Notes: generated by a model from the sequence alone, not told the origin. Shown: positions 30,449-63,124, counted from the first letter of the stretch. The stretch: DNA of 64,000 nucleotides from Chryseobacterium taichungense (GCF_900109935.1 NZ_FOBV01000002.1:124001-188000); one strand, 5' to 3'. Program-made: numbers and translations.

Positions 30449-30478
30449 TTGGCAATACACAAAAACATTCTATATTTG
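30449..30478 (+). promoter_or_regulatory. Promoter of tRNA-Ser
   Basis: TTG (30449-30451), 19 bp, TATATTTG (30471-30478): an exact Bacteroidota consensus, 34 bp before the tRNA. Confidence 0.8.
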
Positions 30479-30512
30479 CACCACTGAAAACGACGATATC
30501 ATCGGAGTTTCT

Positions 30513-30600
30513 GGAGAGTTGGCAGAGTGGTCGATTGCGGCAGTCTTGAAAACTGTTGACTGTAACAGGTCCGGGGGTTCGAATCCCTCACTCTCCGCCA
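30513..30600 (+). tRNA. tRNA-Ser (anticodon UGA)
   Basis: 88 bases including the encoded CCA. The acceptor stem GGAGAGT pairs with ACTCTCC. The anticodon loop CTTGAAA gives UGA, the variable arm is long as expected for class II serine tRNA, and the T arm has GGTTCGAATCC. An integrase gene lies 251 bp downstream on the same strand, so the tRNA 3' end is a likely attachment site. Confidence 0.96.
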
Positions 30601-30621
30601 GGTTAGAAACCAAAATAAGCT

Positions 30622-30657
30622 AAAACGCTGTAAACATCGATGTTTACAGCGTTTTTT
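30622..30657 (+). terminator. Terminator after tRNA-Ser (17-bp perfect palindrome)
   Basis: 30622-30638 and 30639-30655 are exact complements (AAAACGCTGTAAACATC with no unpaired loop), followed by a short T-run. It ends transcription of the tRNA. Confidence 0.85.
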
Positions 30658-30710
30658 GTTTTGGCTCTGTATCAAAAAAAATCAAAATAGGTCACGATTT
30701 ATATGTCCTA

Positions 30711-30752
30711 TTTCGTGTCCCATTCAAAAAATCACAAAAATGGGTCACGAAA
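30711..30752. other. Inverted TTTCGTGTCCCATT sites, possible integrase arm sites
   Basis: TTTCGTGTCCCATT (30711-30724) and AATGGGTCACGAAA (30739-30752) are inverted copies matching at 13 of 14 positions. A further GGTCACGA lies just upstream (30690-30697). They lie between tRNA-Ser and the integrase gene, where arm-type integrase sites are expected. The function is a guess. Confidence 0.45.
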
Positions 30753-30851
30753 AATCAAGGAAAGCCCGACCAATAGGCAGTCTAACGATTGTACATCTTG
30801 CAAAAAGTGGTAACAAAAAGTAAATTATTAAACCATTAAAGTTATCACACA

Positions 30852-32087
30852 ATGAACAAAACATTCAACCTGCTATTCTTTATCAAAAAGAACAAGATCA
30901 GAACAAACGGAACCGCTCCCATCTACTTACGAATTACGATAGACGGCAAAGCAGCAGACATTGCTGCTAAAAGGTATATCGATCCGAAGAAATGGGATGT
31001 TAAAGCACACAAGGCATTGGGTAATTCGCAAGAAGCTAAAACACTGAATCTCTATCTTAAAACTTTGGAACAGAAAGTTTACGATTTCCACTACCTGATG
31101 CTGAAAGAAGAAAACTTTGTAACTGCAGAGAGTTTAAAATCTAAACTGCTTGGAACTGATATTGAGCAAAGAATGCTTATTCCGATATTCCAAGAGCATA
31201 ATGACAAAGTGGAAGCTTTGGTCGGTCAGGATTTTGCTCCAGGAACATTAGAACGTTACAAAACTTCTTTAAAACATACGCAGGAATTCATTAGTTGGAA
31301 ATACAAAGTTTCTGATATTGACATCACGCAAATCGATCACGGTTTTATCAGTGATTATGATTTCTGGTTGCGCAGTGTGCGTAAATGCGCAAACAATACA
31401 GCCGTTAAATACCTCAAAAATTTCAAAAAGATCATTCGTTTGTGTTTGGCGCACGGCTGGATCACGAAAGATCCTTTTCTTGGTTATAAAGCAAAGATCA
31501 AAGAGGTGGAGCGTCCATATCTTACCAAAGAAGAAATACAGATGATCTACGAAAAGAAATTTGCATCTGACCGATTGAACCAAGTTCGCGATATCTTTCT
31601 TTTCAGCTGCTACACTGGCCTGGCTTATGTGGATGTCAAGCAACTGTCAAAATCTAACATAAACGTCGGAATTGATGGTGATCAATGGATTTTTACCCAC
31701 CGTCAAAAGACTGATACATCAACCAGAGTTCCTTTATTGCCAGTGGCTCAGGAGCTGGTTTTAAAGTATGAGAACCATCCGCAATGTGTCAATTCGGATG
31801 TCCTGTTTCCTGTCCTAAGCAACCAGAAGATGAATTCTTACCTTAAAGAAATTGCGAGTGTATGTGAAATCAATAAGGATTTGACGTTCCATATAGCAAG
31901 ACATACTTTTGCTACAACTATTACTTTATCCAATGGTGTTCCTATTGAAAGTGTTAGTAAAATGCTGGGGCATACGAACATTAAGACTACTCAGCACTAT
32001 GCGAAGATTCTGGATAAAAAAGTGAGTGATGATATGGCGGTCTTAAGAGGAAAACTTCATAGTAAAAAAACAAACCGTCTACTGTAA
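30852..32087 (+). CDS. Tyrosine integrase of the Bacteroidota mobile-element type
   Basis: 411 residues. The N-terminal arm-binding domain (FNLLFFIKKNKIRTNGTAP) is followed by a SAM-like core-binding domain (about 110-215) and the catalytic domain. His-x-x-Arg is seen in FHIARHTFATT, then GHTNIKTTQHYAKI with the nucleophile Tyr. In the first catalytic box the usual Arg is replaced (CYTGLAYVDV has Ala), as in IntDOT-like enzymes that lack this Arg. It is coded 251 bp after tRNA-Ser and probably integrated the neighbouring island there. The partner attachment site was not found in the window. Confidence 0.92.
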   Translation: MNKTFNLLFFIKKNKIRTNGTAPIYLRITIDGKAADIAAKRYIDPKKWDVKAHKALGNSQEAKTLNLYLKTLEQKVYDFHYLMLKEENFVTAESLKSKLLGTDIEQRMLIPIFQEHNDKVEALVGQDFAPGTLERYKTSLKHTQEFISWKYKVSDIDITQIDHGFISDYDFWLRSVRKCANNTAVKYLKNFKKIIRLCLAHGWITKDPFLGYKAKIKEVERPYLTKEEIQMIYEKKFASDRLNQVRDIFLFSCYTGLAYVDVKQLSKSNINVGIDGDQWIFTHRQKTDTSTRVPLLPVAQELVLKYENHPQCVNSDVLFPVLSNQKMNSYLKEIASVCEINKDLTFHIARHTFATTITLSNGVPIESVSKMLGHTNIKTTQHYAKILDKKVSDDMAVLRGKLHSKKTNRLL

Positions 32088-32627
32088 ATGGATTTAAAAT
32101 TTTCAATTTAGTCTAAAAATCCCAACTGAAAAAGCTGTGGTTTTAAAAGAGATTTTTATTTCTAAGCATATTAACATTCATTTCAAACAACTTTACAATT
32201 AACTCTTATAAAAAATGCTCTAGGCCTTCTAAACCTTTGTATCTAAAAATTACATTTATATCCAGTAAAATATTAAATCATTGCAATAGTTTTAAACTAA
32301 AATATAAAATTACAAAAACATGTAAAATTTTCAAAATAACCAGCTGTTAACATGGTGTTGAGGATATTGAGAATTTTAAAGTATTTTTTTCAAAACTTGT
32401 TTGCTATTAAACAAAAATTTAAAATCAATTAACTGAACAGTCACCTCTTGTAATTGTTTATTTTTATGAATAATGATATAGTTTCAATATTTTACGGTTT
32501 TCCCTAATAAAAAAAATGTTATTTGATTATATTTGTTAATAAACTTAACAATCAATTGATAATTTCCAGAATTAAAACTTTTAATAATGAATATGAATAA
32601 TAATATTGTTATCAAAAACTATAAGTG
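32088..32627. other. 540-bp AT-rich gap before the caspase-helicase operon
   Basis: No gene or RNA was recognised. An inverted repeat TTGTTAA (32533-32539) and TTAACAA (32545-32551) lies about 75 bp before the operon start and could be an operator. The strong drop in G+C compared with the flanking core genes fits acquired DNA. Confidence 0.4.
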
Positions 32628-35600
32628 ATGCAAATACATGGCATATTCATAGGTATTGATAGATTTCAATCTCCTTCTATTAACTGGCTTTCTTGTGCAA
32701 AAAGAGATGCAGTTGCTTTATATTCTTTGTTTTCTGATAATCTTCAGGGAGATTTTCATTTGATGTACGATGAAAATGCTTCAAGAAACTCAATAGAAAA
32801 CAGAATTAAAGAACTATCAACCTGTTCAGAGGATGATATAGTAATATTTTCTTTTTCTGGACATGGAACAACAACGCACGAATTAGTAACCTACGATACA
32901 AACATTAATGATATAGGCTCAACCACTATATCATTGGATACTTTGGCAGGATGGTTTAAAAACATTCCTGCAAAGCAATTGATATGTATCATTGATTGTT
33001 GTTTTTCTGGAGGAATGGGGACTAAAGCTTTGGAAGTAAATTTTGCTTCGAGGGAATTAAGATCGGGAGAAGATCTGATAAAGCAGTTTTCAGGGAGTGG
33101 TCGGGTTATCCTAACAGCTTCTAAAGCTACTGAACCAGCGTGGGAAAACGGAAAACTTGGTCATGGTTTATTAACTTACCACCTTCTCGAAGCATTACAA
33201 GGTGCCGATGAAGTAAGAAAAGACAATAAAATAGGCATCTATCGTCTGTTGGAATATGTCACGTCAAGCGTAAAAAATTCAGCAGGACAATTAGGCGCTG
33301 AACAGAATCCGATGCTTTTGGGGCAAATAATAGAAGAGATCAGTTTTCCTATATTCAAACCTGGAAAATTATATAAAGAAGCCTTTCCTGAAAGAAATTT
33401 TGCATTGGCAGATTCAAATATCGATTCTCTATTAGGGTTTGGATTTCCAGTTGGTATCTTGAATGTGTGGAAGTCAAAAATACCCTCTCTAAATCAATTA
33501 CAAGTAGATGCGATTAATGATTATGGCATTCTGGATGGTAGCCACCTTATAGTATCTGCCCCTACTTCTTCAGGTAAAACAATGGTAGGAGAGCTTGCTG
33601 CTATATATGGAGTTACACAAAGAAAAAGAGCTGTATTTCTTCTTCCGTTAAAAGCATTAGTAAATGACAAATTAAGGCATTTTAATGAAATGTACGGCTC
33701 ATTTGATATCAAAACAATCAAAGCAACAGGCGAAAGTAGTACAGATGATATAACTCCATTGATGAAGGGGCAATATGATGTTTGTTTAATGACCTACGAA
33801 AAATTCTCCGCCATTGTCTTGGCTAATCCATATATACTTAATCAGATAGGCACTATCGTTGTTGATGAGGCTCAAATGATTGCAGATAAAAACAGGGGTG
33901 TAAACCTAGAGTTTCTACTCACACTATTGAAGCTCAAGCGTAAAGAAGATATTGAACCTCAAATTATTGCTTTATCAGCAGTTATCGGTGATTTGAACGG
34001 ATTGGAGAGATGGTTAGGAGGACGTTTATTGCTGCACACAGAAAGACCAGTTCCTTTAAATGAGGGTATTATAAAGTCTAATGGTGATTTTAGATATATT
34101 GAATCTGACACTGGTGAGGAAAAAACGATAAATCTAATGACGCCGCAATTTAGAAAAGGTTCGGGTCAAGACATTATTATTCCGTTAGTTCAAAAACTGG
34201 TAAACGAAGGTAAAAATGTAATCGTTTTTCGAGAAACGAAGTCAGAGGCACAGGCTTGTGCGATGTACCTTGCCAATAATTTAGAGTTAGCACCTGCGTC
34301 TGAGACCATAAAGTTATTACCTCAAAGAGATCCGTCAACCGCAACTCAGAAATTAAGGCAAGTATTAAACAAAGGTATTGCTTTTCATATTTCCGATCTT
34401 GATCCGGACGAGCGATCTGTTATCGAAGATCAGTTCAGAAATAAAGAGTCTGGCTTACGAGTTATAGCAGCAACAACAACTTTAGCAATGGGTGTCAATA
34501 CTCCTACAGAAGCAGTAATTATTTCAGGTTTGACACATCCTGGAAATGTTCCCTATTCCATTTCAGAGTATAAAAATATTATTGGTCGAGCTGGGCGTTT
34601 AGGATTTGCCGAGAGGGGATACTCCTTCTTAGTTGCACTAACGTCTATAGCCGAACATACTTATTGGCAGGATTACATTTTAGGAAAACCGGAAGACATG
34701 CAATCCAATTTTGTTTCAAAAGATACAGATTGCAGATCTTTAGTGCTGAGAGTGCTTTCTGCGTCCAAATCTCAAATAGGTATGAGTCAGGAGAATATTA
34801 TTGGATTCCTGACAGAAAGTTTTGGAGCTTATCAAGAGAAAATAAAATATGACGGCTGGGATTGGAATCAAAATGACATTATCAATGCATTGACTGAGTT
34901 GACACATCATCAACTGATAAAAATGAATAGCGATGGTTATTTTCAGACAACTCTAATTGGCAAAATAGTTGGAGATTCGGGTATTGAGGTTGAATCTATT
35001 ATTCGTATTATTAGTGTATTGAAACAAATCCCTTCAAGTCAACTTTCGAGTCCGGTGTTATTAGGCATTACTCAGCTTTCTAAAGAATTGGAGCAAGTAT
35101 ATATGCCCATAAATCGGAAAGGAATTTTTAAGGAATCCCAAACATGGTTAAATGCCGTTCACGCTCAAGGAATACCTACACAATTAGTAAACGCATTTTC
35201 AAATCATTCAAAAGATCAAATAGATACAACATTAAAATATAAAAAAACCATTTCTTGTCTGCTTTGGATTACAGACAAACAACTTGCTGAGATCGAAGCT
35301 ACATTGATGCAACACTATTTTGATAAATCTTCAGCTGGGGCAATACGAGCTGTAGTTGCCAGAACTTGTGATATTTTACCTATAGTCACCAGCATAGCAG
35401 AGATATTACACCCAGAACTGAACTTGAGTGATAAAGTCTTAAAACTACTTTTGAGATTAGAATTGGGTATTCCATCTTCAATCAGAGAATTAGCTGAAGT
35501 TTTAGGTAGAACATTGAACCGGGGAGAATACCTTGAACTATCAAAAAGAGGAATTAGTAGTATAGATCAGTTTGTTAATGCTGATGAACAAGTTTTATTA

Positions 35601-35711
35601 AGCGTTCTTTCTCTTGATAAAATCGAAGAAGCAAAATTTAAAATTGAACAAAACATACAGGTACAATCGGAAATATCAGCATTACCCGAGATTCCATTGT
35701 ATGAAGAATAG
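32628..35711 (+). CDS. Caspase-SKI2-like helicase fusion, candidate defence protein
   Basis: 1027 residues from the ATG at 32628 (a GTG one codon earlier is possible). Residues 1-240 are a caspase-like (C14) protease: opening strand GIFIGIDRF, catalytic His in FSFSGHGT (about 79) and catalytic Cys in IIDCCFSGG (about 125). From about 280 follows an SF2 helicase: LNQLQVDAI, Walker A SAPTSSGKT (about 310-318), DEAQ (about 413-416), motif III SAV, motif V ATTTLAMGVNTP and motif VI IIGRAGRLGF, the GRAGR form of SKI2-like enzymes. The C-terminal third is helical. It is the first gene of a three-gene operon with a PD-(D/E)XK protein and another helicase. I infer that nucleic-acid sensing by the helicase unleashes the protease. 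I know no named system with this fusion. Confidence 0.88.
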   Translation: MQIHGIFIGIDRFQSPSINWLSCAKRDAVALYSLFSDNLQGDFHLMYDENASRNSIENRIKELSTCSEDDIVIFSFSGHGTTTHELVTYDTNINDIGSTTISLDTLAGWFKNIPAKQLICIIDCCFSGGMGTKALEVNFASRELRSGEDLIKQFSGSGRVILTASKATEPAWENGKLGHGLLTYHLLEALQGADEVRKDNKIGIYRLLEYVTSSVKNSAGQLGAEQNPMLLGQIIEEISFPIFKPGKLYKEAFPERNFALADSNIDSLLGFGFPVGILNVWKSKIPSLNQLQVDAINDYGILDGSHLIVSAPTSSGKTMVGELAAIYGVTQRKRAVFLLPLKALVNDKLRHFNEMYGSFDIKTIKATGESSTDDITPLMKGQYDVCLMTYEKFSAIVLANPYILNQIGTIVVDEAQMIADKNRGVNLEFLLTLLKLKRKEDIEPQIIALSAVIGDLNGLERWLGGRLLLHTERPVPLNEGIIKSNGDFRYIESDTGEEKTINLMTPQFRKGSGQDIIIPLVQKLVNEGKNVIVFRETKSEAQACAMYLANNLELAPASETIKLLPQRDPSTATQKLRQVLNKGIAFHISDLDPDERSVIEDQFRNKESGLRVIAATTTLAMGVNTPTEAVIISGLTHPGNVPYSISEYKNIIGRAGRLGFAERGYSFLVALTSIAEHTYWQDYILGKPEDMQSNFVSKDTDCRSLVLRVLSASKSQIGMSQENIIGFLTESFGAYQEKIKYDGWDWNQNDIINALTELTHHQLIKMNSDGYFQTTLIGKIVGDSGIEVESIIRIISVLKQIPSSQLSSPVLLGITQLSKELEQVYMPINRKGIFKESQTWLNAVHAQGIPTQLVNAFSNHSKDQIDTTLKYKKTISCLLWITDKQLAEIEATLMQHYFDKSSAGAIRAVVARTCDILPIVTSIAEILHPELNLSDKVLKLLLRLELGIPSSIRELAEVLGRTLNRGEYLELSKRGISSIDQFVNADEQVLLSVLSLDKIEEAKFKIEQNIQVQSEISALPEIPLYEE

Positions 35712-35743
35712 AGACTACATAATAAAGTGATAATTATATAACT

Positions 35744-36535
35744 ATGCCATTTAACCTAATTGATACTGATTGTTCAGATTTAGTAATAGACTATGAATAT
35801 GAAATAGCGAATAAGGATTTGTTAGCAGAATACGTAGGTGAATTAGTTCTCGGACATTATTTCCACATACTAAATATTATCAACTCACTTTCTTCATCTT
35901 CATCGACACCATCAAATAGAATTATAGATTTTGCGATTGAGAAACTTAACGTTACAGAAGATGTAAATGTGATTCATAGAGATGGTTGGTTATTTCAAAT
36001 GATTTCATGGTTGGTTTTAGCTCATAGAAATTTGGGAAGTAATTATCACACCCAGCATCCTCATTTTGCTCCTGCTCAGCATGGAATTGATGGCTTAAGC
36101 ATTGTTTTAAAACCAGATAACACAATCGATAAAATAATAATAACTGAAGATAAGTGTACTGCAAATCCCAGAGATACTATTAGAGAACAAGTTTTTCCAG
36201 AGTTTAAAGGTTTCGAAGATGGTAAAAAGGATTCTGCGTTGATTAGTGTTTTATCAAGTCTAATTGCACATTTAGATGCAGGAGCTGTTTTTCAAAGCGT
36301 ACAAAATGATATTTATAATACTGATTTGAGAATGTATAGAATAGGTATTACTAGAGAAGATTCTCACCAATCTCTTAGAGGAAGGCGTAGATTGTTTAAG
36401 AATTACGATGACTATGTTTCAGGACCGACTAGTTCTAGAAGAAGCGGTGCAACGATATATCTTGATGATATGAGAAATTGGATGCAGGACTTTTCAGATA
36501 AGGTTGTCAATTATTTAGAATCCAAAAAGTCTTAA
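35744..36535 (+). CDS. PD-(D/E)XK nuclease, HamA-like
   Basis: 263 residues. GIDGLSIVLKP and then IIITEDKCT give Asp116 and Glu135-x-Lys137, the PD-(D/E)XK arrangement. The size and the HGIDGL...EDK core resemble HamA (DUF1837) of Hachiman. It lies 32 bp after the caspase-helicase and 1 bp before the second helicase, so all three are surely one transcript. HamA normally pairs with one SF2 helicase, so this gene and the next could be a Hachiman-like core with the caspase-helicase added. The nuclease assignment rests on motif reading only. Confidence 0.65.
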   Translation: MPFNLIDTDCSDLVIDYEYEIANKDLLAEYVGELVLGHYFHILNIINSLSSSSSTPSNRIIDFAIEKLNVTEDVNVIHRDGWLFQMISWLVLAHRNLGSNYHTQHPHFAPAQHGIDGLSIVLKPDNTIDKIIITEDKCTANPRDTIREQVFPEFKGFEDGKKDSALISVLSSLIAHLDAGAVFQSVQNDIYNTDLRMYRIGITREDSHQSLRGRRRLFKNYDDYVSGPTSSRRSGATIYLDDMRNWMQDFSDKVVNYLESKKS

Positions 36536-36536
36536 A

Positions 36537-39500
36537 ATGTATAATAGTGCTACAGAACAAAAAATAAAAGATATACCGACGATTGGAGATATTGATATTG
36601 ATAGACTTCCTCAAGACTTAACAAGAATCTATGCTCAAATAGTCAGTTTAAGACGTCAGGTTGTTGATGGGACAATTAATTTTCAAGATGAGGATCTTGT
36701 TTCGGGTTTAACTCTTCTTAGAAAGTTAGCAAATAATCTGGAGACCATATTGCTAACCTTCCCTCAACACGAGCAGAAAGAGTCAGTCGCCTTTGTGGCA
36801 GGTACTGCGAATAATCTTATCCATAAGATGGGATTAATTAATGAACAAAATGAGGCTCTTTTAGAGGTAGATTCAATATCGTCCTATATCGCAGCAACAG
36901 TTCTTTTTTTAATTGGTAATAGTCAAGCCGATGCTGCTGAAACAGCTATTTCTATCACAGAAATACACAGCGAAAACTTAGTACAACAGCGATTAATTTC
37001 CTGTATAATTTCTTTAGCGACTGGAAAACTATCAAAAATAGCGGATAGTAATTTTAATGAAGATGAGGTTATACAAGAAGACTTTCAGCAGACAGCGTTG
37101 AATTATTTATGGCGAGAACTTGGACTTGGTATCATAAATATAGCTAAAAGACTAGTTGGCCAATTTAACGATGAACAACAAAACCATTTCGATAGAGTAA
37201 TTGAACTTTCCATATCAGCCCCGGATATTTTTGACCAGAGGAACATTTTTTCAGGACCTTATCGTCTTGCAAAATTACTAAAAATACTGGAAGAGGATAT
37301 TTTTAATAGAGCCGTCATTGACATTCCACCACCAACGGGTGTAGATCCCCACTCTTGGTACGATTTCCTATCAAAGTTGGCTAAAGACCGTCCCTATTTG
37401 TGGGAAAATCATAAAGATGCTGTAGAAACTGACTTCCTGACCCCTGGTATATCAGCAGTTCTAACACTTCCTACGGGAGCTGGTAAATCCACTTTATCCG
37501 AATTGAAAATAGCATCATGTCTTTATTCTGGAAGAAGAGTAATCTATTTGGTTCCTACGCACGCTTTAGAAGATCAGGTCAATAGAAATTTAAGAAAATT
37601 ATTTGATGAATTTGAACCTATCAATATTAAATTTGGTGGTGAATATACAGATTTTGAGGAAATAGAGAGTTTTCCAATTCTAGTTATGACTCCTGAACGA
37701 TGCTTAACTTTTCTAAATATTAATCCCGAGTTTTTTGATAGTGTTGGACTGGTAATTTTCGATGAGTTTCACCTAATACATGGCACGGATATTAAAAAAG
37801 ATAGAAGGTCGATTGATGCAATGTATTGTCTATTATCAGTGTTTACATTGGCTTCTCATGCTGATTATCTTCTCATATCTGCAATGGTTGAAAACGGAGA
37901 TGAAATAGCTTCTTGGGTAAAACAAATTACAAAAAAAGAGTGCAAGGTTTTTAATTCAACATGGAAACCAACTCGTCAACTACATGGGTGCTTAGTATTC
38001 GATGAAGATAAAATTTTAAATTTAAATAGAAAAATTCAACAACAAAGAAAGAATGCTGTTACTAAAGCTCCACCTGCAAAACTTAGAAGAGAATTAATTA
38101 TTGATGCTTTATGCTTTTTTAGTTTAAAAAATGTTTGGGAAACTGATAATAACGATGATTATTTTAGATCCCAAGTTCTTAGTCATAGTGTGTTTTTGGG
38201 AATTAATAATTGGTGGCAACTAACAAGCAATAGAAATAATGTTGCTGCAATGCTTGCAATACATTTTTCTAATTTAGGTCTCAAAACACTTGTCTTCGTT
38301 GATGATCCAAGAATAACTAATTCAACTTCACGCACTATTGCTGAAGCTCTTAATGATAGAGAAAATAGTTATGATGAATATATTCATCGTAACCAAGATT
38401 TAATAGAAAGTATTCGTATTGAATTGGGAGATTTTAAACATTCATTTTTTACTGACTGTAAAAATGTAGGAGTACATCATGGTTTATTATTACCGTTAGA
38501 AAGAACTTTAATTGAAAATTATTTTAAATCTACGAATGGTGCGATTGCACTTGTTGCAACAGCAACATTAGCTCAAGGCATTAATTTACCTGCAGAAATC
38601 GTTATTATTGCTGGTGATGATCGTTTCGATGAAGATGGAGAAAATAGACAAAGGGTAAATCCTCACGAATTATTAAATGCTGCTGGAAGAGCTGGAAGGG
38701 CTGGTCTTTCTTCGCAGGGAGCGGTAATATTAATTCCAGGAGATATAGTTACAATCAAAGACTCTACAATTTCCGATAGGTGGTGGGATTTAAAAAACGA
38801 AGTATTTTCGAAAGGTGATCAATGTCTTAAGATTGAAGACCCACTGGAATATTTTTTAGATACAATGCAAGAAAATAATGAAGATTTGACTGTTGACCAA
38901 AAAAATATTTTATATAGGTTTAAGCCCGAGAATATTTCACATATTGATACTAAAAATTTGTTAAATAAATCGTTTTATGCTTATAAAGCAGCAAATAATG
39001 GTAAAAGTGAACAATTTAATATGCAAGTTCGAAGACTATTAGACAGAATTAATGAATTATATAATTTATCTGAAGAATATTTATGGCAAAAAGAAATTGG
39101 AATTAAGACTGGAGTTGAACCATTAATAATTTATGAGTTAGGAAATGCGATTGAACAACGAGGAATAGAAAATCTACTTTCAAAATCTATTACTGAACTC
39201 ATTGATTGGTTTTTTGAGTGGATAAGTACTAACGAAGTTTTTATCGAAAAAATATTTACCAAAAAGTCTACAATAGATCAAATAAAGAAATCAATTGGTT
39301 TGAAATCAGAAAGTTCAGTTTCAGATGTACTTTCTAAAATCGGAATATTAGCAGATATCCTAAAATACTATGTTCAAGGAATTCCTTTAAATGAGTTAAA
39401 TGATAAAATTCCTGATGTCAGTCGAGCAGATAATACGGGCTATTTAGTCAAGGCCAGAAACTTTGTTAATCGACTTGCTCCCGAGCTAAGTTTTGGTTTT

Positions 39501-39695
39501 GGATTGTTATCAATGGTTCTTACAGAAAAAGCTAATCAAGAGGAGGGGAAACAAAATATCCCTTGGGATATTAGAGTATTAGCGAGTTGTATAAGAGAAG
39601 GCTTTGATTATTCATTAAAATTATTTTATAAGAAAAATAACAAATTATTAATGCGTGTTGAGACTCATTTGTTATATAATAATGAATTTAAATAA
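36537..39695 (+). CDS. Large SF2 (SKI2/HamB-like) helicase with long N-terminal extension
   Basis: 1052 residues. The first ~290 are helical and unrecognised. The helicase core shows Walker A LPTGAGKS (311-318), VPTHALEDQV (Ia), MTPERCL (Ic), DEFH (409-412) in place of DEAH, SAM (III), ATATLAQGINLP (V) and AAGRAGRAG (VI). About 300 helical residues follow. It differs strongly from the helicase part of the first gene, so it is not a recent duplicate. It starts 1 bp after the HamA-like gene. In a Hachiman-type pair the helicase would scan DNA and control the nuclease. The second half is visibly richer in A+T than the first. Confidence 0.88.
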   Translation: MYNSATEQKIKDIPTIGDIDIDRLPQDLTRIYAQIVSLRRQVVDGTINFQDEDLVSGLTLLRKLANNLETILLTFPQHEQKESVAFVAGTANNLIHKMGLINEQNEALLEVDSISSYIAATVLFLIGNSQADAAETAISITEIHSENLVQQRLISCIISLATGKLSKIADSNFNEDEVIQEDFQQTALNYLWRELGLGIINIAKRLVGQFNDEQQNHFDRVIELSISAPDIFDQRNIFSGPYRLAKLLKILEEDIFNRAVIDIPPPTGVDPHSWYDFLSKLAKDRPYLWENHKDAVETDFLTPGISAVLTLPTGAGKSTLSELKIASCLYSGRRVIYLVPTHALEDQVNRNLRKLFDEFEPINIKFGGEYTDFEEIESFPILVMTPERCLTFLNINPEFFDSVGLVIFDEFHLIHGTDIKKDRRSIDAMYCLLSVFTLASHADYLLISAMVENGDEIASWVKQITKKECKVFNSTWKPTRQLHGCLVFDEDKILNLNRKIQQQRKNAVTKAPPAKLRRELIIDALCFFSLKNVWETDNNDDYFRSQVLSHSVFLGINNWWQLTSNRNNVAAMLAIHFSNLGLKTLVFVDDPRITNSTSRTIAEALNDRENSYDEYIHRNQDLIESIRIELGDFKHSFFTDCKNVGVHHGLLLPLERTLIENYFKSTNGAIALVATATLAQGINLPAEIVIIAGDDRFDEDGENRQRVNPHELLNAAGRAGRAGLSSQGAVILIPGDIVTIKDSTISDRWWDLKNEVFSKGDQCLKIEDPLEYFLDTMQENNEDLTVDQKNILYRFKPENISHIDTKNLLNKSFYAYKAANNGKSEQFNMQVRRLLDRINELYNLSEEYLWQKEIGIKTGVEPLIIYELGNAIEQRGIENLLSKSITELIDWFFEWISTNEVFIEKIFTKKSTIDQIKKSIGLKSESSVSDVLSKIGILADILKYYVQGIPLNELNDKIPDVSRADNTGYLVKARNFVNRLAPELSFGFGLLSMVLTEKANQEEGKQNIPWDIRVLASCIREGFDYSLKLFYKKNNKLLMRVETHLLYNNEFK

Positions 39696-39842: not shown

Positions 39843-40460
39843 TTACATATTTTCATTTATTAATCTAATTTCCTCTTCTAAGTCCAATTTGCTGTCAAAG
39901 TTTATTTTTAAATTCATACCTATATTATAATAAATTACATTCGAATGTGTTATAACTTCAGGGAATTCATTCATTATATTCAAACATATTTTTTGCATAA
40001 TCATCAAACAAACTTTTTTTTCATTTAAAGAATCTGGAATTAAGTATTCATAAACTTCATTATTCGGATTATTAAAAAATGATTTCTTATTTGCTCTAAA
40101 ATTATGTGCGAGAATGTCATTTCTGAATTTTTCTAAATCTTTCCATTTACTAATTCGTTTAATTCCGTATTGATTGATATTTCGCACTTTTCTTATCGAT
40201 TCAGCATACTTTTTATCAAAATTACTTTCATTGAAGTTTTTATATTCATCTAAAAATGACTTGAATTGTATTAAACAATGATTTGATAAAATTGCTCTTG
40301 AAGCCATTGAAAATCCAGGTTCATTATAAAAATTTTCATCAAATTCTATTTTACTTAATTCCGAATGGTTTTTTATACATTCCTCAATACAGAGAATTGT
40401 TAATTTTATTTGCGTGAAAAGAAAAGATAAGGATTTATAAATTTCAATTAAACGATCCAT
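39843..40460 (-). CDS. HEPN-type protein, candidate RNase toxin
   Basis: 205 residues, helical. FRNDILAHN contains Arg113-x5-His119, which fits the R-x4-6-H active site of HEPN ribonucleases. The surrounding pattern (RNDILAHNFRA) resembles the AbiU2-like HEPN branch used in abortive infection. It lies 73 bp after an HTH gene of the same strand, which looks like a toxin-regulator pair. It faces the caspase-helicase operon tail to tail. A catalytic role is inferred from one motif. Confidence 0.6.
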   Translation of the reverse strand: MDRLIEIYKSLSFLFTQIKLTILCIEECIKNHSELSKIEFDENFYNEPGFSMASRAILSNHCLIQFKSFLDEYKNFNESNFDKKYAESIRKVRNINQYGIKRISKWKDLEKFRNDILAHNFRANKKSFFNNPNNEVYEYLIPDSLNEKKVCLMIMQKICLNIMNEFPEVITHSNVIYYNIGMNLKINFDSKLDLEEEIRLINENM

Positions 40461-40533
40461 TTCTTATAAAATTGCTAATAAGATTTCTGGCTATGCTAAA
40501 TGTGTAAATAGAAAATACCAACTTTCATTAAGA

Positions 40534-40830
40534 TTAATCTGGAATATTTATACCTTTTGCACTTTCAAATTCTTTGAAGAATTTTTCTAATGAATAACGC
40601 TCGTGGCGTAGTATATTATAAATTGTAGACATTGGAATATTATACCCTTCTTCTAATTTCAACTTTGAGATTGTTGATGAAGTGATTCCACACATTTTTG
40701 CATATTTATTTTGTGTTATTACCTTACCGTCTTGGTCACGATATTCACGTAGAAATTTACTTTCAATAAAATTACACAAGTGCTTATTAACAAGTGTATT
40801 TTTTGTATTCAAAACTTCTTTATTTTGCAT
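40534..40830 (-). CDS. XRE-like helix-turn-helix regulator
   Basis: 98 residues. The HTH is TQNKYAKMCGITSSTISKLKLEEGYNIPMSTIYNILR (about 38-75), with a short basic N-terminal arm and an acidic tail. It is coded just before the HEPN gene and probably represses the pair. A perfect 18-bp palindrome 46 bp before its start codon is the likely operator. Confidence 0.75.
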   Translation of the reverse strand: MQNKEVLNTKNTLVNKHLCNFIESKFLREYRDQDGKVITQNKYAKMCGITSSTISKLKLEEGYNIPMSTIYNILRHERYSLEKFFKEFESAKGINIPD

Positions 40831-57180: not shown

Positions 57181-57737
57181 GTAATTGAAATACAGGTTAG
57201 CTGGAAGTCTGCGCAAAATGTGCACAGGTCAGCGTAAAACCGGCTCAAAAAATTAAGCAACTCAACACTAATCCTGCGTAAAAATTGAGCCGGATATTTA
57301 AATGCGTGCTCAAAATTTGAGCAACCATATTTCTGAAGTGTATCTCAATAAAATAAAGCAGCTCATACCTCTGCTTACAAATTGCGCCACTTTTATGAAA
57401 ACCGGCTCAAAAATATTAGCACAACACACTTACCTGGCTCAAAAAATAAGCCGGTGATCCCTAACCCGGCGCAGAATTTGAGCCAAATACTGTCGATGCG
57501 GCTTAAAAATTAAACCTCCATATCTCTAAATTGTATCCAAGAAAGTAAAGCAGCTCATAACTCTGCTTAAAAACTGAACCACTTTTTGCAAAACCGGCTC
57601 AAAATTATAACCACAACACGCTGACCTGGCTCAAAAAGTGAGCCGGCCAATCCTAACCCGGTGCAGAATTTGAGCCGTGTACTGTCAATGCGGCTCAAAA
57701 ATTGAACAACCCTGATGTCATTGTCTTTTCTGCTTTT
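57181..57737. repeat. 192-bp tandem repeats rich in GGCTCAAA (iteron-like)
   Basis: Two copies in exact 192-bp register, without insertions or deletions, at 57354-57545 and 57546-57737. A shortened, diverged third copy precedes them (about 57181-57353). Each copy carries several GGCTCAAA and TTTGAGCC motifs. Within copy 2, GGCTCAAAAAGTGAGCC (57628-57644) is a palindrome; the matching stretch of copy 1 is 57436-57452. No open reading frame fits. The gap 57095-58102 is otherwise gene-free. Two DNA-binding protein genes follow, so it may be an origin of replication, transfer origin or partition site of a mobile element. Confidence 0.7.
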
Positions 57738-57839
57738 TTTCTTTTCAAAAGCAATTAATACAACTGATTAATAATCAATAAAATGCAGTCACATTTCAGA
57801 GCTCTGAAAAATCAGCGATACAATTAAGCAAGATGTGTC

Positions 57840-57853
57840 TTTGTATATACAAA
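57840..57853. promoter_or_regulatory. Perfect 14-bp palindrome TTTGTATATACAAA
   Basis: A self-complementary site about 250 bp before the HTH gene at 58103. It may be an operator for one of the two small DNA-binding proteins downstream. Confidence 0.45.
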
Positions 57854-57903
57854 CTTTTCAAGTTTTATATCCAAGACTCTCTTGCCTTTTTTGCAAAAAG
57901 GGG

Positions 57904-57929
57904 AAAAGACTTCGAAACTCGTCTTTTTT
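57904..57929 (+). terminator. Intrinsic terminator, maybe of a small RNA
   Basis: AAAAGAC (57904-57910) pairs with GTCTTTT (57921-57927), with the T-run going on to 57929. A transcript ending here would contain no gene, so a short RNA or an attenuated leader are options. Confidence 0.5.
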
Positions 57930-58102
57930 CTTTGTAAACCATCTAGTTGATTCCAATTTATTCTTTTTTAATCTCTAAAAGATTCCTGCATCATCCAGAT
58001 TGTTCTTATTTAGCCCACGCCCCTCTAACACTATTGTTTTGAATGTTTTAATGCTACAACTTTGTAGAAGAAAACCAAGTCAAAAACAAAAATGAAGTAG
58101 TT

Positions 58103-58360
58103 ATGATCGTAAACCTAATCACCAAAGAAGACCTTCAGGAATTTAGAACCGAATTGCTGGAAGACCTACAAAACCTATTTCAGATCAAGATTTCCCAGCA
58201 GAAATTATGGCTCCGCTCCTCAGAGGTCAAAGCACTTCTAAAAATCTCCTCCGGAACACTGCAAAACCTCCGTACCAATGGAAGCTTATCGTACACCCGT
58301 GTCGGCGGGACATTATATTACAATTACAAAGACATTGAAGAAATGCTGAAAAAGAAGTAA
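58103..58360 (+). CDS. HTH_17/excisionase-like DNA-binding protein
   Basis: 85 residues. An acidic N-terminal coiled region is followed by LWLRSSEVKALLKISSGTLQNLRTNGSLSYTRVGGTLYYNYKDIEEML, the MerR/excisionase-like winged HTH that Bacteroidota mobile elements commonly carry. It is 28 bp before the next gene in the same direction, in the lee of the iteron-like repeats. It probably binds element DNA for excision or replication control. Confidence 0.8.
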   Translation: MIVNLITKEDLQEFRTELLEDLQNLFQIKISQQKLWLRSSEVKALLKISSGTLQNLRTNGSLSYTRVGGTLYYNYKDIEEMLKKK

Positions 58361-58387
58361 TGATATTTAACAACAGCGAACCAAATT

Positions 58388-58714
58388 ATGAATTATATCA
58401 AACACCTCACAGCTTTCTATGAAAAGGTGGCTCAGGATAATACGCTCAACCCATCACACATCAGCCTCTATTTAGCCTTATTCCAGTTCTGGAATTTCAG
58501 CCGTTTCCGAAATCCGGTCAGTATTTCCCGCGATGAAGTGATGCGTATCAGTAAAATCCGCTCAAAGGCCACCTATCATAAATGCCTGAAGAATCTTCAC
58601 TCTTCGGGCTATATTGATTATCAGCCGTCGTATAATCCGTTTCAGGGAAGCCAGGTGGTGATGGTGGATTTTGGTGGGGAGTTGAAGGTTGGTCAGCAGC
58701 AAAGAAATAAATAA
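58388..58714 (+). CDS. Winged-helix protein of mobile-element type
   Basis: 108 residues. NPSHISLYLALFQFWNFSRFRNPVSISRDEVMRISKIRSKATYHKCLKNLHSSGYIDYQPSYNPFQG has the pattern of the replication-initiator-like/winged HTH proteins coded after excisionase-like genes in Bacteroidota integrative elements. It ends in a short polar tail. It pairs with the gene before it. The exact role is unknown. Confidence 0.7.
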   Translation: MNYIKHLTAFYEKVAQDNTLNPSHISLYLALFQFWNFSRFRNPVSISRDEVMRISKIRSKATYHKCLKNLHSSGYIDYQPSYNPFQGSQVVMVDFGGELKVGQQQRNK

Positions 58715-58819: not shown

Positions 58820-60388
58820 ATGTCAGAAGAACAGAAACGTCAGTTGCAGCAGCAACTTTGGAATATAGCGAATACTTTAAGAGGTAAAATGGATGCGGAT
58901 GAATTCCGTGATTATATTTTAGGATTTATTTTCTATAAATATCTTTCAGAGAAAATACATTTTACGGCTAACAAAATTTTATTAGATTCAGGAGAAGATG
59001 TTGATTACAATGATGTTGATGAAAATACTGAAGAAGGGAAAGGAATTGTAGAAGCCATTTATGAAGAAGTCGTTGAAGATTTGGGATATTTCCTGAAACC
59101 TTCGGAACTTTTCAGTAATATTGCCAAAAAAGGACATCAGAAACAGGAAGGGAAATCTAATTTTATCTTAGCTGAACTTTCTAAAATCCTCAATAATATT
59201 GAGCAATCCACATTAGGAACAAATAGTGAAGATGATTTTGAAGGATTGTTTGATGATTTGGATCTTACTTCGGCAAAACTTGGACGAACTGAAGACGAAA
59301 AAAATACATTAATCTCCAAAGTTCTGTATCATTTAGATGATATTGATTTCAATTTATCAGATACCAATGCTGATGTTTTAGGCGATGCTTATGAATATCT
59401 GATTGCACAGTTTGCAAGTGGGGCTGGTAAAAAAGCAGGAGAATTTTATACTCCGCAACAGGTTTCTACTATTTTAGCAAGAATTGTTACGAGTCGAAAA
59501 TCACAATTAAAATCTGTATATGACCCGACTTGCGGAAGTGGTTCATTGCTTTTAAGAGTTGCCCGTGAAGCAAAAGTAAGCGATTTCTATGGTCAGGAAA
59601 TGAACCGTACGACTTACAACTTAGCAAGGATGAATATGATTCTGCACGGTGTCAATTACAGCAACTTTGATATCCGTCAGGAAGATACTCTGGAAAAACC
59701 TCAACATTTAGATAAAACCTTTGATGCTATTGTAGCCAATCCTCCCTTTTCTGCGAAGTGGAGCTCTAATGAACTTCTTTTATTAGATGAAAGATTTTCA
59801 CAATACGGAAAATTAGCGCCGTCTTCAAAAGCAGACTTTGCTTTTATCCAGCATATGATTCATCACTTGGATGAAAACGGAATTATGGCTGTCGTAATGC
59901 CACACGGAGTTCTGTTTCGTGGTGCAGCCGAATTGGTTATCCGAAAATATCTGATTAAAGAGAAAAATTATTTAGATGCTGTGATTGGTTTGCCTTCCAA
60001 TATTTTCTTTGGAACCAGTATTCCTACCTGTATATTAGTCTTTAAGAAATGTCGTGAAGCCGATGAAGATATCCTATTTGTAGATGCAAGCAAAGAGTTT
60101 GAGAAGCAAAAAAATCAAAATGTATTGCTCAATGCTCATATCAATAAAATTGTTGACACTTATCAAAATCGTACAGTAACTGAAAAGTTCAGTCATAAAG
60201 CGACATTGCAGGAGGTTGCAGATAATGATTACAATCTAAATATTCCTCGCTATGTGGATGCTTTTGAGGAAGAAGAGGAAATTGATATTCAGGCGGTAAT
60301 GGCAGAAATTAAGGAGCTTGAAGCAAAGCGTTCTCAATTGGATTCTGAAATTGAAGTTTATTTGAAAGAATTGGGATTAGTCAGCTAA
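58820..60388 (+). CDS. hsdM: Type I restriction-modification methyltransferase subunit
   Basis: 522 residues. Helical N-terminal HsdM domain (about 7-165), then the N6-adenine methyltransferase core: SAM motif DPTCGSGS (235-242) and catalytic NPPF (307-310). EFYTP (208-212) is the usual lead-in of the family. A coiled-coil C-terminus (EEEEEIDIQAVMAEIKELEAKRSQLDSEIEVYL) would contact HsdS. It methylates the adenine of a bipartite site chosen by HsdS, which follows 59 bp later. No HsdR is seen in the window. Confidence 0.95.
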   Translation: MSEEQKRQLQQQLWNIANTLRGKMDADEFRDYILGFIFYKYLSEKIHFTANKILLDSGEDVDYNDVDENTEEGKGIVEAIYEEVVEDLGYFLKPSELFSNIAKKGHQKQEGKSNFILAELSKILNNIEQSTLGTNSEDDFEGLFDDLDLTSAKLGRTEDEKNTLISKVLYHLDDIDFNLSDTNADVLGDAYEYLIAQFASGAGKKAGEFYTPQQVSTILARIVTSRKSQLKSVYDPTCGSGSLLLRVAREAKVSDFYGQEMNRTTYNLARMNMILHGVNYSNFDIRQEDTLEKPQHLDKTFDAIVANPPFSAKWSSNELLLLDERFSQYGKLAPSSKADFAFIQHMIHHLDENGIMAVVMPHGVLFRGAAELVIRKYLIKEKNYLDAVIGLPSNIFFGTSIPTCILVFKKCREADEDILFVDASKEFEKQKNQNVLLNAHINKIVDTYQNRTVTEKFSHKATLQEVADNDYNLNIPRYVDAFEEEEEIDIQAVMAEIKELEAKRSQLDSEIEVYLKELGLVS

Positions 60389-60447
60389 ATTTTTTTTGGC
60401 TTAGTAAAATCCTCAAGGTTTAGAATTTTAACAAATAAATTATAAAG

Positions 60448-61746
60448 ATGACAGAAGAAAATAAAAGTGTAAAGAATTTTCCTAATTCGAGAAACATACC
60501 CAAATTGAGGTTTTTAAAATTCAATGATGGATGGGAAGATAAGAAACTTGGAGACTTAATGAATTTCAAAGTAACTAATTCTTATTCAAGAGATAATCTC
60601 AATTATGAATCAGGAACCGTAAAAAATATTCACTATGGAGATATCCATACCAAATTTCAAACTCTTTTTGATTTAGAAAAAGAAAATGTTCCATATATAA
60701 ATGAAGATATTTCTCTGAATAGGATTTCAGAAGATTTTTATTGCCAAGAAGGAGATGTAATTTTTGCAGATGCTTCTGAAGATTTAAACGATGTTGGGAA
60801 AAGTATTGAAATTATAAATGTTAATGGAGAAAAATTACTTTCCGGTTTGCATACTCTTTTAGCAAGACCGCAAAAAAATAATTTCTCTAAAGGATTTCTT
60901 GGATATTTATTAAAATCTGATTATGTAAGAAATCAAATAAAAAGAGAATCACAAGGGTCTAAGGTATTAAGCATTAATGTGGGTAGGATTTCTAATATTC
61001 ATTTAGTATATCCTTCAATTCCAGAGCAACAAAAGATTTCTGAATTTTTATCTCTTTTGGATAAGAGGATATTATATTCAATGAAAATAATTGAGGATTT
61101 AATTATTTTAAAATCTAGTACTGCTCAAAATATATTTAATCAAGTTTTTAGATTTAAAGATTCTGAAGATAATGATTTTCCTAAGTGGGATATTAAAAAG
61201 CTAGGAGATGTTTGCGAAATAAAAAGAGGCGCTTCCCCACGCCCTATTTCAGAGAGTAAATGGTTTGATGAAGATTCCAAAATTGGATGGGTAAGAATTT
61301 CTGACGTTACAAAATCTAATAAGTATTTAGAAAAGACAGAACAATATTTATCTAATGCAGGTATTTCGAAAAGCAGATTGGTGAAAAAAGGAAACATGAT
61401 AATGAGCATTTGTGCTACTATAGGAAAGCCTATTTACACAAATTTTGATGTTTGTATACACGATGGTTTTGTTGTTTTTGAAAACCTAACGCTCGATAAA
61501 GAGTTTCTATATTATTATTTAGATTTTATTCAATTGAATTGGTATAAGTATGGACAGCCAGGAATTCAAATAAACCTTAACTCGGAAATTGTAAATAATG
61601 AATCTGTATTAGTTCCTGTTATTGAGGAACAAATTAAAATAGCTGAGTTTTTATCAAAGTTTGATGAAAAAATAAATTTAGAGAACGAGTTACTAACTCA
61701 ATACGAAAATCAGAAAAAATATTTATTACAAAATCTTTTTGTTTAA
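60448..61746 (+). CDS. hsdS: Type I specificity subunit (expressed copy)
   Basis: 432 residues with two target-recognition domains. TRD1 begins after NIPKLRFLKFNDGWEDKKLGD and is followed by the first conserved helix (IPEQQKISEFLSLLDKRILYSMKII). TRD2 follows DFPKWDIKKLGDVCE and the second conserved helix (EEQIKIAEFLSKFDEKI...). It sets the two halves of the recognised sequence. Being in line with hsdM it should be the active copy. Stretches at the start and middle match, in reverse orientation, the second hsdS at 61807-63006. Confidence 0.94.
   Translation: MTEENKSVKNFPNSRNIPKLRFLKFNDGWEDKKLGDLMNFKVTNSYSRDNLNYESGTVKNIHYGDIHTKFQTLFDLEKENVPYINEDISLNRISEDFYCQEGDVIFADASEDLNDVGKSIEIINVNGEKLLSGLHTLLARPQKNNFSKGFLGYLLKSDYVRNQIKRESQGSKVLSINVGRISNIHLVYPSIPEQQKISEFLSLLDKRILYSMKIIEDLIILKSSTAQNIFNQVFRFKDSEDNDFPKWDIKKLGDVCEIKRGASPRPISESKWFDEDSKIGWVRISDVTKSNKYLEKTEQYLSNAGISKSRLVKKGNMIMSICATIGKPIYTNFDVCIHDGFVVFENLTLDKEFLYYYLDFIQLNWYKYGQPGIQINLNSEIVNNESVLVPVIEEQIKIAEFLSKFDEKINLENELLTQYENQKKYLLQNLFV
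60532..60554 (+). repeat. Inverted-repeat site in hsdS start (left partner)
   Basis: TGGGAAGATAAGAAACTTGG and the next three bases match the reverse-oriented site 62927-62949 in the second hsdS at 19 of 23 positions. It codes for the conserved W-x-x-KKLG segment at the head of TRD1, so the likeness could reflect protein conservation alone. Confidence 0.5.
61172..61190 (+). repeat. Inverted-repeat site in hsdS middle (left partner)
   Basis: ATGATTTTCCTAAGTGGGA matches 18 of 19 positions of the site at 62390-62408 in the other hsdS, in inverse orientation. Both are in the same reading phase (coding for DFP-K/N-W), at residue 242 here and 200 there. Recombination here would swap the second recognition domains without changing frame. 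Confidence 0.65.
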
Positions 61747-61763
61747 GAGATTGGGAATTAGAG

Positions 61764-61803
61764 AAGTCTTTTTCAAGTTTTAAAACTTGAAAAGACTTTT
61801 TTT
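61764..61803. terminator. Bidirectional terminator between the two hsdS genes
   Basis: AAGTCTTTTTCAAGTTTT and AAAACTTGAAAAGACTT pair almost fully (one bulge), with T-runs on both sides in the respective directions. It serves both converging hsdS genes. Confidence 0.8.
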
Positions 61804-61806
61804 CCA

Positions 61807-63006
61807 TCAAACAAACAAATTAGCCAAAAGAAACTTTTTTTGAAGTTCTAACTTTTCTAAAATCTGTTTTTCTGCTTCTATTTTATTTTCGATTACAGAA
61901 AGAAACTTTCCTATAACTTTTTGTTCGGGTAAACTTGGAATACTAATTTCAACATCGGAAAATGATTTAACAGATATTGTAAATCTTGTGCTCCCTGTTG
62001 CAAATTTTGATAACTGGCTTAAAACAATTGGAACATTACAGAAATAGTGAGAATATAATATGTCAATCTCAATTTTTGGTCTAAAACGCATTAAGTGATA
62101 ACTAAACACAGCATTTTCAAGATTTTCAGAAATAACAACTGAATGACCAATATCATCAGGGGTTTCTGATGATGGAGTAAAAAGAATATCTCCTTTCTTT
62201 AAATTACAACTTGTAATTTGCTGCTCTTTTGCAGTTACTTTTTGAAACGATTTTATGGTCGTAGAATTTATATCTTCGTGTCTGTAAACGTTCATATAAT
62301 TTACTAGATAGACCTCATTTTCGTTTTCCCTTGAAAGTTTATCAATACTACTTGTCTGAAAATTTCCAATTTCACCAAGTTTTAATTTTTCCCAATTAGG
62401 AAAATCATATCCTTGTTCGTTTTTGAATCTTAATTTTTGAGAAAAAATATTTGTACGACTTACTTTCATTAAGGTTTCTAATTGTTCAATTATTTTCTTT
62501 TGGGTTGAAATTCTGATGTCGATTAATGATAATGAAGATGCAATTTTTTTCTGCTCCTCTATGGAATCTGTAATTATTGATTCAACCTCTAATAAATTTT
62601 GGACAGATAATCCCGGTTGAGCCATACCAGTAGCATACTGATTTAAATTTAGGTAGTTTAATAAATAAAATAACCAATTGGAATGTACTTTATCTTTAGG
62701 AGTTACAACAACTGCGTGCTCAGTTGCATAAAATTTATCATATACTCTTGTTATGTTTCCACAAAGTGCTCCTTGTCTACCAATTAAAGAGTATTCTCCA
62801 TCATAATTATATGAATAAGTAAATCCTCTTAATCCATTTGCTCCATAACAAGGATATAATTTATTATTTGTCTCCTTTAAAATCTCTGAAGCACTAACAA
62901 ATTTTCCAGCTTGCATTTTACATATATCTCCCAATTTCTTCACTTCCCAATTCCTCTCAAACTCGGGAAATCTAAGCTTCGGTAATAAATTAGGAAAGAA
63001 AGTCAT
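61807..63006 (-). CDS. hsdS: Type I specificity subunit, reverse-oriented (probably silent) copy
   Basis: 399 residues from the ATG at 63006, preceded by GGAG at a proper distance; an in-frame ATG 7 codons earlier is less likely. Domain order is as in the first hsdS: LLPKLRFPEFERNWEVKKLGD, TRD1, IEEQKKIASSLSLIDIRI, DFPNWEKLKLGE, TRD2, and a final LPEQKVIGKFLSVIENKI. TRDs differ completely from those of the first gene, so the specificity would differ. It points back toward hsdM and has no partner M gene, so it probably serves as a store for switching. Confidence 0.9.
   Translation of the reverse strand: MTFFPNLLPKLRFPEFERNWEVKKLGDICKMQAGKFVSASEILKETNNKLYPCYGANGLRGFTYSYNYDGEYSLIGRQGALCGNITRVYDKFYATEHAVVVTPKDKVHSNWLFYLLNYLNLNQYATGMAQPGLSVQNLLEVESIITDSIEEQKKIASSLSLIDIRISTQKKIIEQLETLMKVSRTNIFSQKLRFKNEQGYDFPNWEKLKLGEIGNFQTSSIDKLSRENENEVYLVNYMNVYRHEDINSTTIKSFQKVTAKEQQITSCNLKKGDILFTPSSETPDDIGHSVVISENLENAVFSYHLMRFRPKIEIDILYSHYFCNVPIVLSQLSKFATGSTRFTISVKSFSDVEISIPSLPEQKVIGKFLSVIENKIEAEKQILEKLELQKKFLLANLFV
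62390..62408 (-). repeat. Inverted-repeat site in second hsdS middle (right partner)
   Basis: Partner of 61172-61190 (18 of 19 identical in inverse orientation). Positions 61172 and 62408 bracket about 1.24 kb. Confidence 0.65.
62927..62949 (-). repeat. Inverted-repeat site in second hsdS start (right partner)
   Basis: Partner of 60532-60554 (19 of 23 identical). Recombination between these would exchange nearly the whole specificity genes. The lower identity makes this less certain than the middle pair. Confidence 0.45.
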
Positions 63007-63124
63007 AATTATCTCCTTTCCGCACATTGAGGAGAAATTTATCCACTAATCCTAAATTTTTGATTAGCTGTTATCAATTCATACCTTTTAGGATTTTAAA
63101 TAATAAATATAAAATCAAAAAATT

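Follow-up and report, generated by a model that had tools for sequence, protein, structure and literature searches.

In the Hachiman defence system, the helicase HamB restrains the nuclease HamA on intact DNA; when DNA ends or single-stranded DNA (ssDNA) are met, ATP is hydrolysed and the nuclease becomes active, which leads to DNA clearance (PMC12278908). An N-terminal helical bundle, which HamB orthologs share and related Ski2 helicases lack, is involved in the binding of HamA (PMC12278908). AbpAB, also a nuclease with a Ski2-like helicase, is considered a Hachiman variant (PMC12278908). The coupling of a protease to a nuclease has been established in two systems: HamMAB, where a trypsin-type protease is fused to HamA and the gated nuclease is HamM, of the metallo-β-lactamase (MBL) type, and Canu (CanABC), where an immunoglobulin (Ig)-like caspase occurs with a gated MBL-fold nuclease (PMC12799240). 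Helicase domains were also reported in 12 metacaspase sequences in a 2012 survey (PMC3501461). Here, these systems are compared with a locus at positions 32628-39695 of a 64,000-nucleotide stretch of Chryseobacterium taichungense DNA (NZ_FOBV01000002.1:124001-188000; the window). It encodes a C14 caspase fused to a Hel308-type helicase of superfamily 2 (SF2), called CaspHel below, followed by a nuclease and a second helicase. An earlier note on this DNA had proposed that the three genes form one undescribed defence system. With a probability of roughly 0.8, they are instead two independent, separately mobile cassettes, CaspHel alone and a divergent Hachiman-like pair, which lie end to end in an integrated region next to a tRNA-Ser gene of Chryseobacterium.

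Distribution and boundaries of the cassettes

The locus consists of three intact open reading frames (ORFs) on one strand, separated by 32 and 1 bp. ORF calls and motif positions bear out the gene layout and the motifs that the earlier note had named (Table 1). Its reading of the trio as a single system did not survive comparison with other genomes. When 84,980 species genomes were scanned, 169 relatives of the nuclease came up, from which 80 loci were kept, 65 of them with at least 3 kb of upstream sequence. A HamB-like helicase gene, intact or broken, directly follows the nuclease gene in 79 of these loci, and in the 80th the contig ends; CaspHel adjoins none of the 80. CaspHel was also absent from all 45 pair-bearing genomes that were searched whole, and none of 15 further CaspHel loci adjoins a HamA-like nuclease–helicase pair. 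In a set of 296 genomes from the family, five were found to have the nuclease and four to have CaspHel; the query genome is the only one in which they occur together. Whether the three genes recur together had been set beforehand as the test of a system, and no such recurrence was found in the sampled genomes.

The boundaries of DNA similarity were located using blastn. Compared with solo CaspHel genes of congeners, the similar block covers 32628-35712 and ends at the stop codon; compared with a solo pair, it covers 35743-39670 and begins at the nuclease. Since the similarity starts and stops at the cassette edges, the trio is taken to be a juxtaposition. Between 35712 and 35743, neither a terminator-like site nor a TAnnTTTG box was found. 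Such a box precedes CaspHel in the window and in three congeners (L026, L027 and L028), where it lies at -49 to -55, and several solo pairs elsewhere carry one of their own; none occurs within 200 bp 5′ of the window nuclease. Because the junction has no terminator and the nuclease no box of its own, the pair is likely to be co-transcribed with CaspHel here. The pair would then probably be read from the CaspHel promoter, with neither cassette needing the other. In this outcome, a false composite system is removed and two testable objects remain.

The two cassettes and their possible action

Like Hachiman, the pair consists of two genes, for a small PD-(D/E)XK-type nuclease with the motif D-x18-E-x-K and then a Ski2-like helicase. 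The helicase is regarded as decisive. This protein of 1052 residues, with GAGKS at 314, DEFH at 409 (the motif reported earlier) and GRAGR at 717, matches the PADLOC HamB model (E 1.5e-39), and its core and C-terminus align with the HamB profile over 650 columns (E 2e-46). The N-terminal domain of HamB was not found in it by sequence, and the likeness there is by fold only. When the AlphaFold2 model of residues 1-310 (predicted local distance difference test score, pLDDT, 88.7) was compared with 350,542 PDB chains by Foldseek, the top three matches were all HamB (prob 1.00, TMq 0.50-0.59). In the nuclease, Asp116, Glu135 and Lys137 stand where the earlier note had put them and are invariant in 74 relatives. 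The D-to-E spacing of 19 is that of E. coli HamA, and E135 and K137 correspond to its E138 and K140. The AlphaFold2 model of the nuclease has a pLDDT of 93.9, with no residue below 50. Its Foldseek matches in the PDB are weak (no E below 0.001), with EcoO109I at the top and Mus81-Eme1, EcoRI and PaqCI lower; these model-based matches are consistent with the PD-(D/E)XK class and are not proof of HamA. Comparison with viral models by Foldseek gave no clear match, and searches of PDB sequences with the protein and its profiles gave nothing meaningful. No close relative of the nuclease was found in viral contigs by close-relative search; the pair also occurs on IMG/VR viral contigs.

The HamB core alignment, the N-terminal HamB fold and the D-x18-E-x-K motif agree with the Hachiman-like pair proposed in the earlier note, and the two genes are best called a divergent Hachiman-like system, which forms a new branch of its own. 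The pair is kept apart from Hachiman proper because the nuclease failed the test against the HamA family model: neither PF08878 nor the PADLOC HamA model detects it. The N-terminus of the helicase cannot be aligned with HamB by sequence. Genuine Hachiman genes can share a genome or even a locus with this branch. The query genome has a separate PF08878 HamA (280 aa) directly 5′ of a 1125-aa helicase (contig C17, 38000-53000), and in Afipia (L050 5133-13090) canonical HamA and HamB genes immediately precede a pair of the divergent kind. The solved AbpB is a weak sequence match to the window helicase (E 8e-4). AbpA combines a Cap4-like N-terminal nuclease with an inactive HamA-like domain, whereas the window nuclease is a single domain with an intact motif. 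Pair loci span many phyla, and their neighbours elsewhere include Hachiman, QatC/QatD, type I and type III restriction and AbiEi, which is context rather than a statistic. By homology, the N-terminal helical domain of the HamB-like helicase would keep hold of the PD-(D/E)XK nuclease until the helicase meets DNA ends or ssDNA; the nuclease would then be released or activated and degrade all DNA. The pair extends Hachiman past the reach of current family models; since the HamA models miss it, surveys based on these models undercount the pair.

CaspHel is numbered here from ATG, with an in-frame GTG one codon 5′. Residues 8-231 match Pfam PF00656 (Peptidase_C14; E 1e-12), and the Pfam DEAD (E 8e-25) and Helicase_C (E 4e-10) models are also matched. 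The caspase motifs are GHG (His79) and DCCFSG (Cys125), and those of the helicase are APTSSGKT at 311, DEAQ at 413 and GRAGR at 653. In an alignment of 11 CaspHel proteins, with homologues down to 34% identity and residue numbers one higher than those used here, the H of GHG and the C of DCCFSG are invariant, and Walker A, DE-x-Q and GRAGR vary little or not at all. The C14 caspase with an intact His/Cys pair fused to a GRAGR-type SF2 helicase, as first described, can be retained and refined to the Hel308 type. Residues 285-1001 match NCBIfam NF002654 (E 2e-79) over positions 20-696 of 739, with 268 bits against an equivalog cut-off of 887, and the best PDB sequence matches of the helicase region are Hel308/Ski2-type chains. 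Judged from its sequence, the helicase is a Hel308-like, near-complete domain and not a Hel308 equivalog. Residues 272-1000 cover most of the length of the Hel308 models and structures that they match; the differences from Hel308 are the fused N-terminal caspase, the motif II of DEAQ/DEGQ and scores far below the equivalog cut-offs. Against same-genus relatives, the ratio of nonsynonymous to synonymous substitution rates (dN/dS) is 0.064 for CaspHel (range 0.02-0.10), 0.15 for the nuclease and 0.12 for the second helicase, so that all three genes are under purifying selection, with dS near saturation. The caspase domain is the most conserved part of CaspHel (dN/dS 0.02 against one congener, L026).

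The 15 further CaspHel loci come from Bacteroidota, Alphaproteobacteria and Nitrospirota, on plasmids in all three and in four Bacteroidota genomes, and from one IMG/VR viral contig. CaspHel occurs in 3 of 295 other genomes of the family and in 1 of 394 others in a phylum sample; none was found in 337 genomes of the class of one HamA-like carrier, a set without a positive control. Its neighbours elsewhere include TIR proteins, other caspases, Piwi with RloB, integrases, XamI restriction-modification with a SAVED-domain/helicase pair, ABC-three-component genes and ubiquitin-like conjugation genes. No partner gene common to the 15 loci was found. The candidates are each confined to two loci and none is general: an upstream 965-aa gene in two of Chryseobacterium, an upstream 200-aa gene in two of Alphaproteobacteria and a downstream exonuclease-domain gene in two of Hymenobacter. 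The 965-aa protein, whose function is unknown, lies 5′ of CaspHel in two of three congeners (L027 11604-14504 and L028 5447-8335; 91% identical) and may be a local partner. On a plasmid of Ca. Manganitrophus (L166 6786-11009), a SAVED-domain gene stands directly 5′ of the gene for a helicase with distant similarity to the HamB-like one; these two genes, 3.7 kb from CaspHel, are possibly a nucleotide-gated cousin of the nuclease–helicase pairs.

With Canu, CaspHel shares a C14-type caspase in a defence setting, but it is a caspase–helicase fusion without a conserved nuclease partner. The metacaspase–helicase fusions of the 2012 survey belong to the same architecture class; the passages of that survey on them neither assign a role in defence nor mention a Hel308 type or a named system (PMC3501461). 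No name for a caspase–Hel308 system was found in the literature searched, with subscription papers and outside preprints beyond reach, where a name may exist. By the libraries and papers searched, the solo caspase–Hel308 family is new and has no name.

CaspHel would unite a sensor, the Hel308-type helicase, and an effector, the caspase, in one chain. The helicase might respond to DNA that is aberrant or stems from phage replication (3′ ssDNA or forks); motion driven by its DNA-dependent ATPase might then switch on the N-terminal caspase, which would cleave host proteins and stop the cell. Host proteins are suggested as substrates because no neighbour gene is constant. A caspase cascade was also considered and rejected, as no second C14 caspase was found in the query genome, where that of CaspHel is the only one. 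We tentatively propose, at somewhat less than even odds, that CaspHel is the type member of an undescribed one-protein immune sensor, found on plasmids and islands in three phyla, in which a Hel308-type helicase gates a caspase so that abnormal DNA leads to proteolytic suicide. If this is true, the solo protein is a minimal one-chain link from DNA sensing to proteolytic death. The two cassettes are likely to work in parallel as suicide modules that sense DNA, with death by DNA cleavage in one case and by proteolysis in the other.

Alternative readings

Several observations weigh against two cassettes of which one is Hachiman-like. The short gap, the shared strand and the lack of a terminator and of an own promoter box also fit a newly formed three-gene unit, and sampling was limited to 80 of the 169 nuclease relatives and to searches of 296 to 395 genomes, with CaspHel being rare. 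The nuclease does not reach the PF08878 (DUF1837) HamA model, which 5 of 74 relatives touch, all below threshold (best E 0.005). An hhalign comparison with 11 true HamA proteins is weak (Prob 3.9, E 0.011), with the active sites in register. The structure prediction of the 263-residue protein that the earlier note had proposed gave a confident model, and HamA is absent from the 50 PDB fold matches listed for it. The Foldseek E-values of the helicase N-terminal domain against HamB are 0.03-0.12. Even so, it is very improbable that the trio is one system in which the caspase–helicase cleaves or licenses the pair in the manner of HamMAB and Canu. The gene arrangement and the precedent of protease–nuclease coupling (PMC12799240) would favour it, but the trio recurs in none of the searched sets and similarity breaks at the cassette junction, on which grounds a single three-gene system was rejected. 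In HamMAB, as at this locus, a protease is encoded close to a Hachiman-type helicase; the HamMAB trypsin is fused to HamA, whereas the C14 caspase is fused to a Hel308-type helicase. The locus also differs in having no MBL nuclease, in keeping the nuclease active site without a gating loop and in showing no recurrent linkage. The nuclease has the length of its solo relatives and is ordered throughout; alignment with them showed no notable gating insertion and the AlphaFold2 model no low-confidence loop. Because of this lack of an insertion relative to solo relatives, and with no recurrent linkage, the HamMAB/Canu gating scheme was rejected.

Two cassettes are thus preferred, and the alternatives for each of them are less remote. 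That the pair is simply Hachiman, already known, with CaspHel as an incidental neighbour, is rather unlikely. The HamB-type core, the HamB N-terminal fold, the motif spacing and the two-gene order speak for it; the window nuclease has no match in the Pfam, NCBIfam or PADLOC families, its relatives touch PF08878 only as described above, and Hachiman proper occurs separately in the query genome and side by side with the divergent kind in Afipia. It is less likely still that CaspHel is a housekeeping or plasmid-maintenance protein, a repair helicase with a protease tail and no antiviral role. In its favour, Hel308 helicases form a repair family, plasmids carry many of the CaspHel genes (one beside ParA), and the caspase domain shows strong conservation and no diversification. 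However, such a role sits poorly with the sparse distribution, the spread over three phyla, and the integrases and varied defence genes that adjoin CaspHel.

Genomic setting

Table 1. Features of the locus and its left flank (window coordinates).
Feature	Coordinates	Strand	Basis or remark
tRNA-Ser(TGA), left edge of variable region	30513..30600	+	Adjoins integrase
Tyrosine integrase, upstream context	30852..32087	+	Pfam
TATATTTG, Bacteroidota-type -7 box (TAnnTTTG) 5′ of CaspHel	32528..32535	+	Motif scan
CaspHel, C14 caspase + Hel308-type SF2 helicase	32628..35711	+	1027 aa from ATG; solo gene elsewhere
Caspase domain, ~residues 1-240, His79 + Cys125	32628..33347	+	Pfam PF00656, motif positions
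Hel308-type helicase region, ~residues 272-1000	33441..35627	+	NCBIfam NF002654 and Hel308 models; PDB chains
Junction between the two cassettes, 32 bp	35712..35743	.	blastn block edges; terminator and promoter-box scans
HamA-like PD-(D/E)XK nuclease, 263 aa, D116 / E135-x-K137	35744..36535	+	Motif, profile and fold comparison
HamB-like Ski2-type helicase, 1052 aa	36537..39695	+	PADLOC HamB match, profile alignment
N-terminal helical domain of HamB-like helicase, residues 1-310	36537..37466	+	AlphaFold2; Foldseek fold match to HamB

In five of seven congeners, DNA similarity crosses the tRNA-Ser gene and is lost no more than about 120 bp past its 3′ end. An attR direct repeat for the island was sought and none was found. 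On the minus strand, 39843-40830 encodes a 205-aa HEPN-like protein with an upstream 98-aa HTH protein, an arrangement that resembles a HEPN toxin and an HTH regulator; the HEPN-like gene (39843-40460) has the RN-x4-H motif, and its Pfam HEPN match is below threshold (E 0.067). Type I genes lie about 18 kb further on (58.8-63.0 kb), past non-defence genes; at 58820-63027, the modification gene hsdM is accompanied by two hsdS genes in opposite orientation, possibly for specificity switching. Degenerate tandem repeats of about 192 bp each, with the motif GGCTCAAAA, occupy 57346-57707. A contig of Chryseobacterium daecheongense shares the tRNA-Ser and the start of the integrase (window 30461-31630, 93%) as well as window 57654-58689 (94%). 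In C. daecheongense, the two shared stretches are about 9 kb apart and enclose a pair of its own, 41% identical to that of the window.

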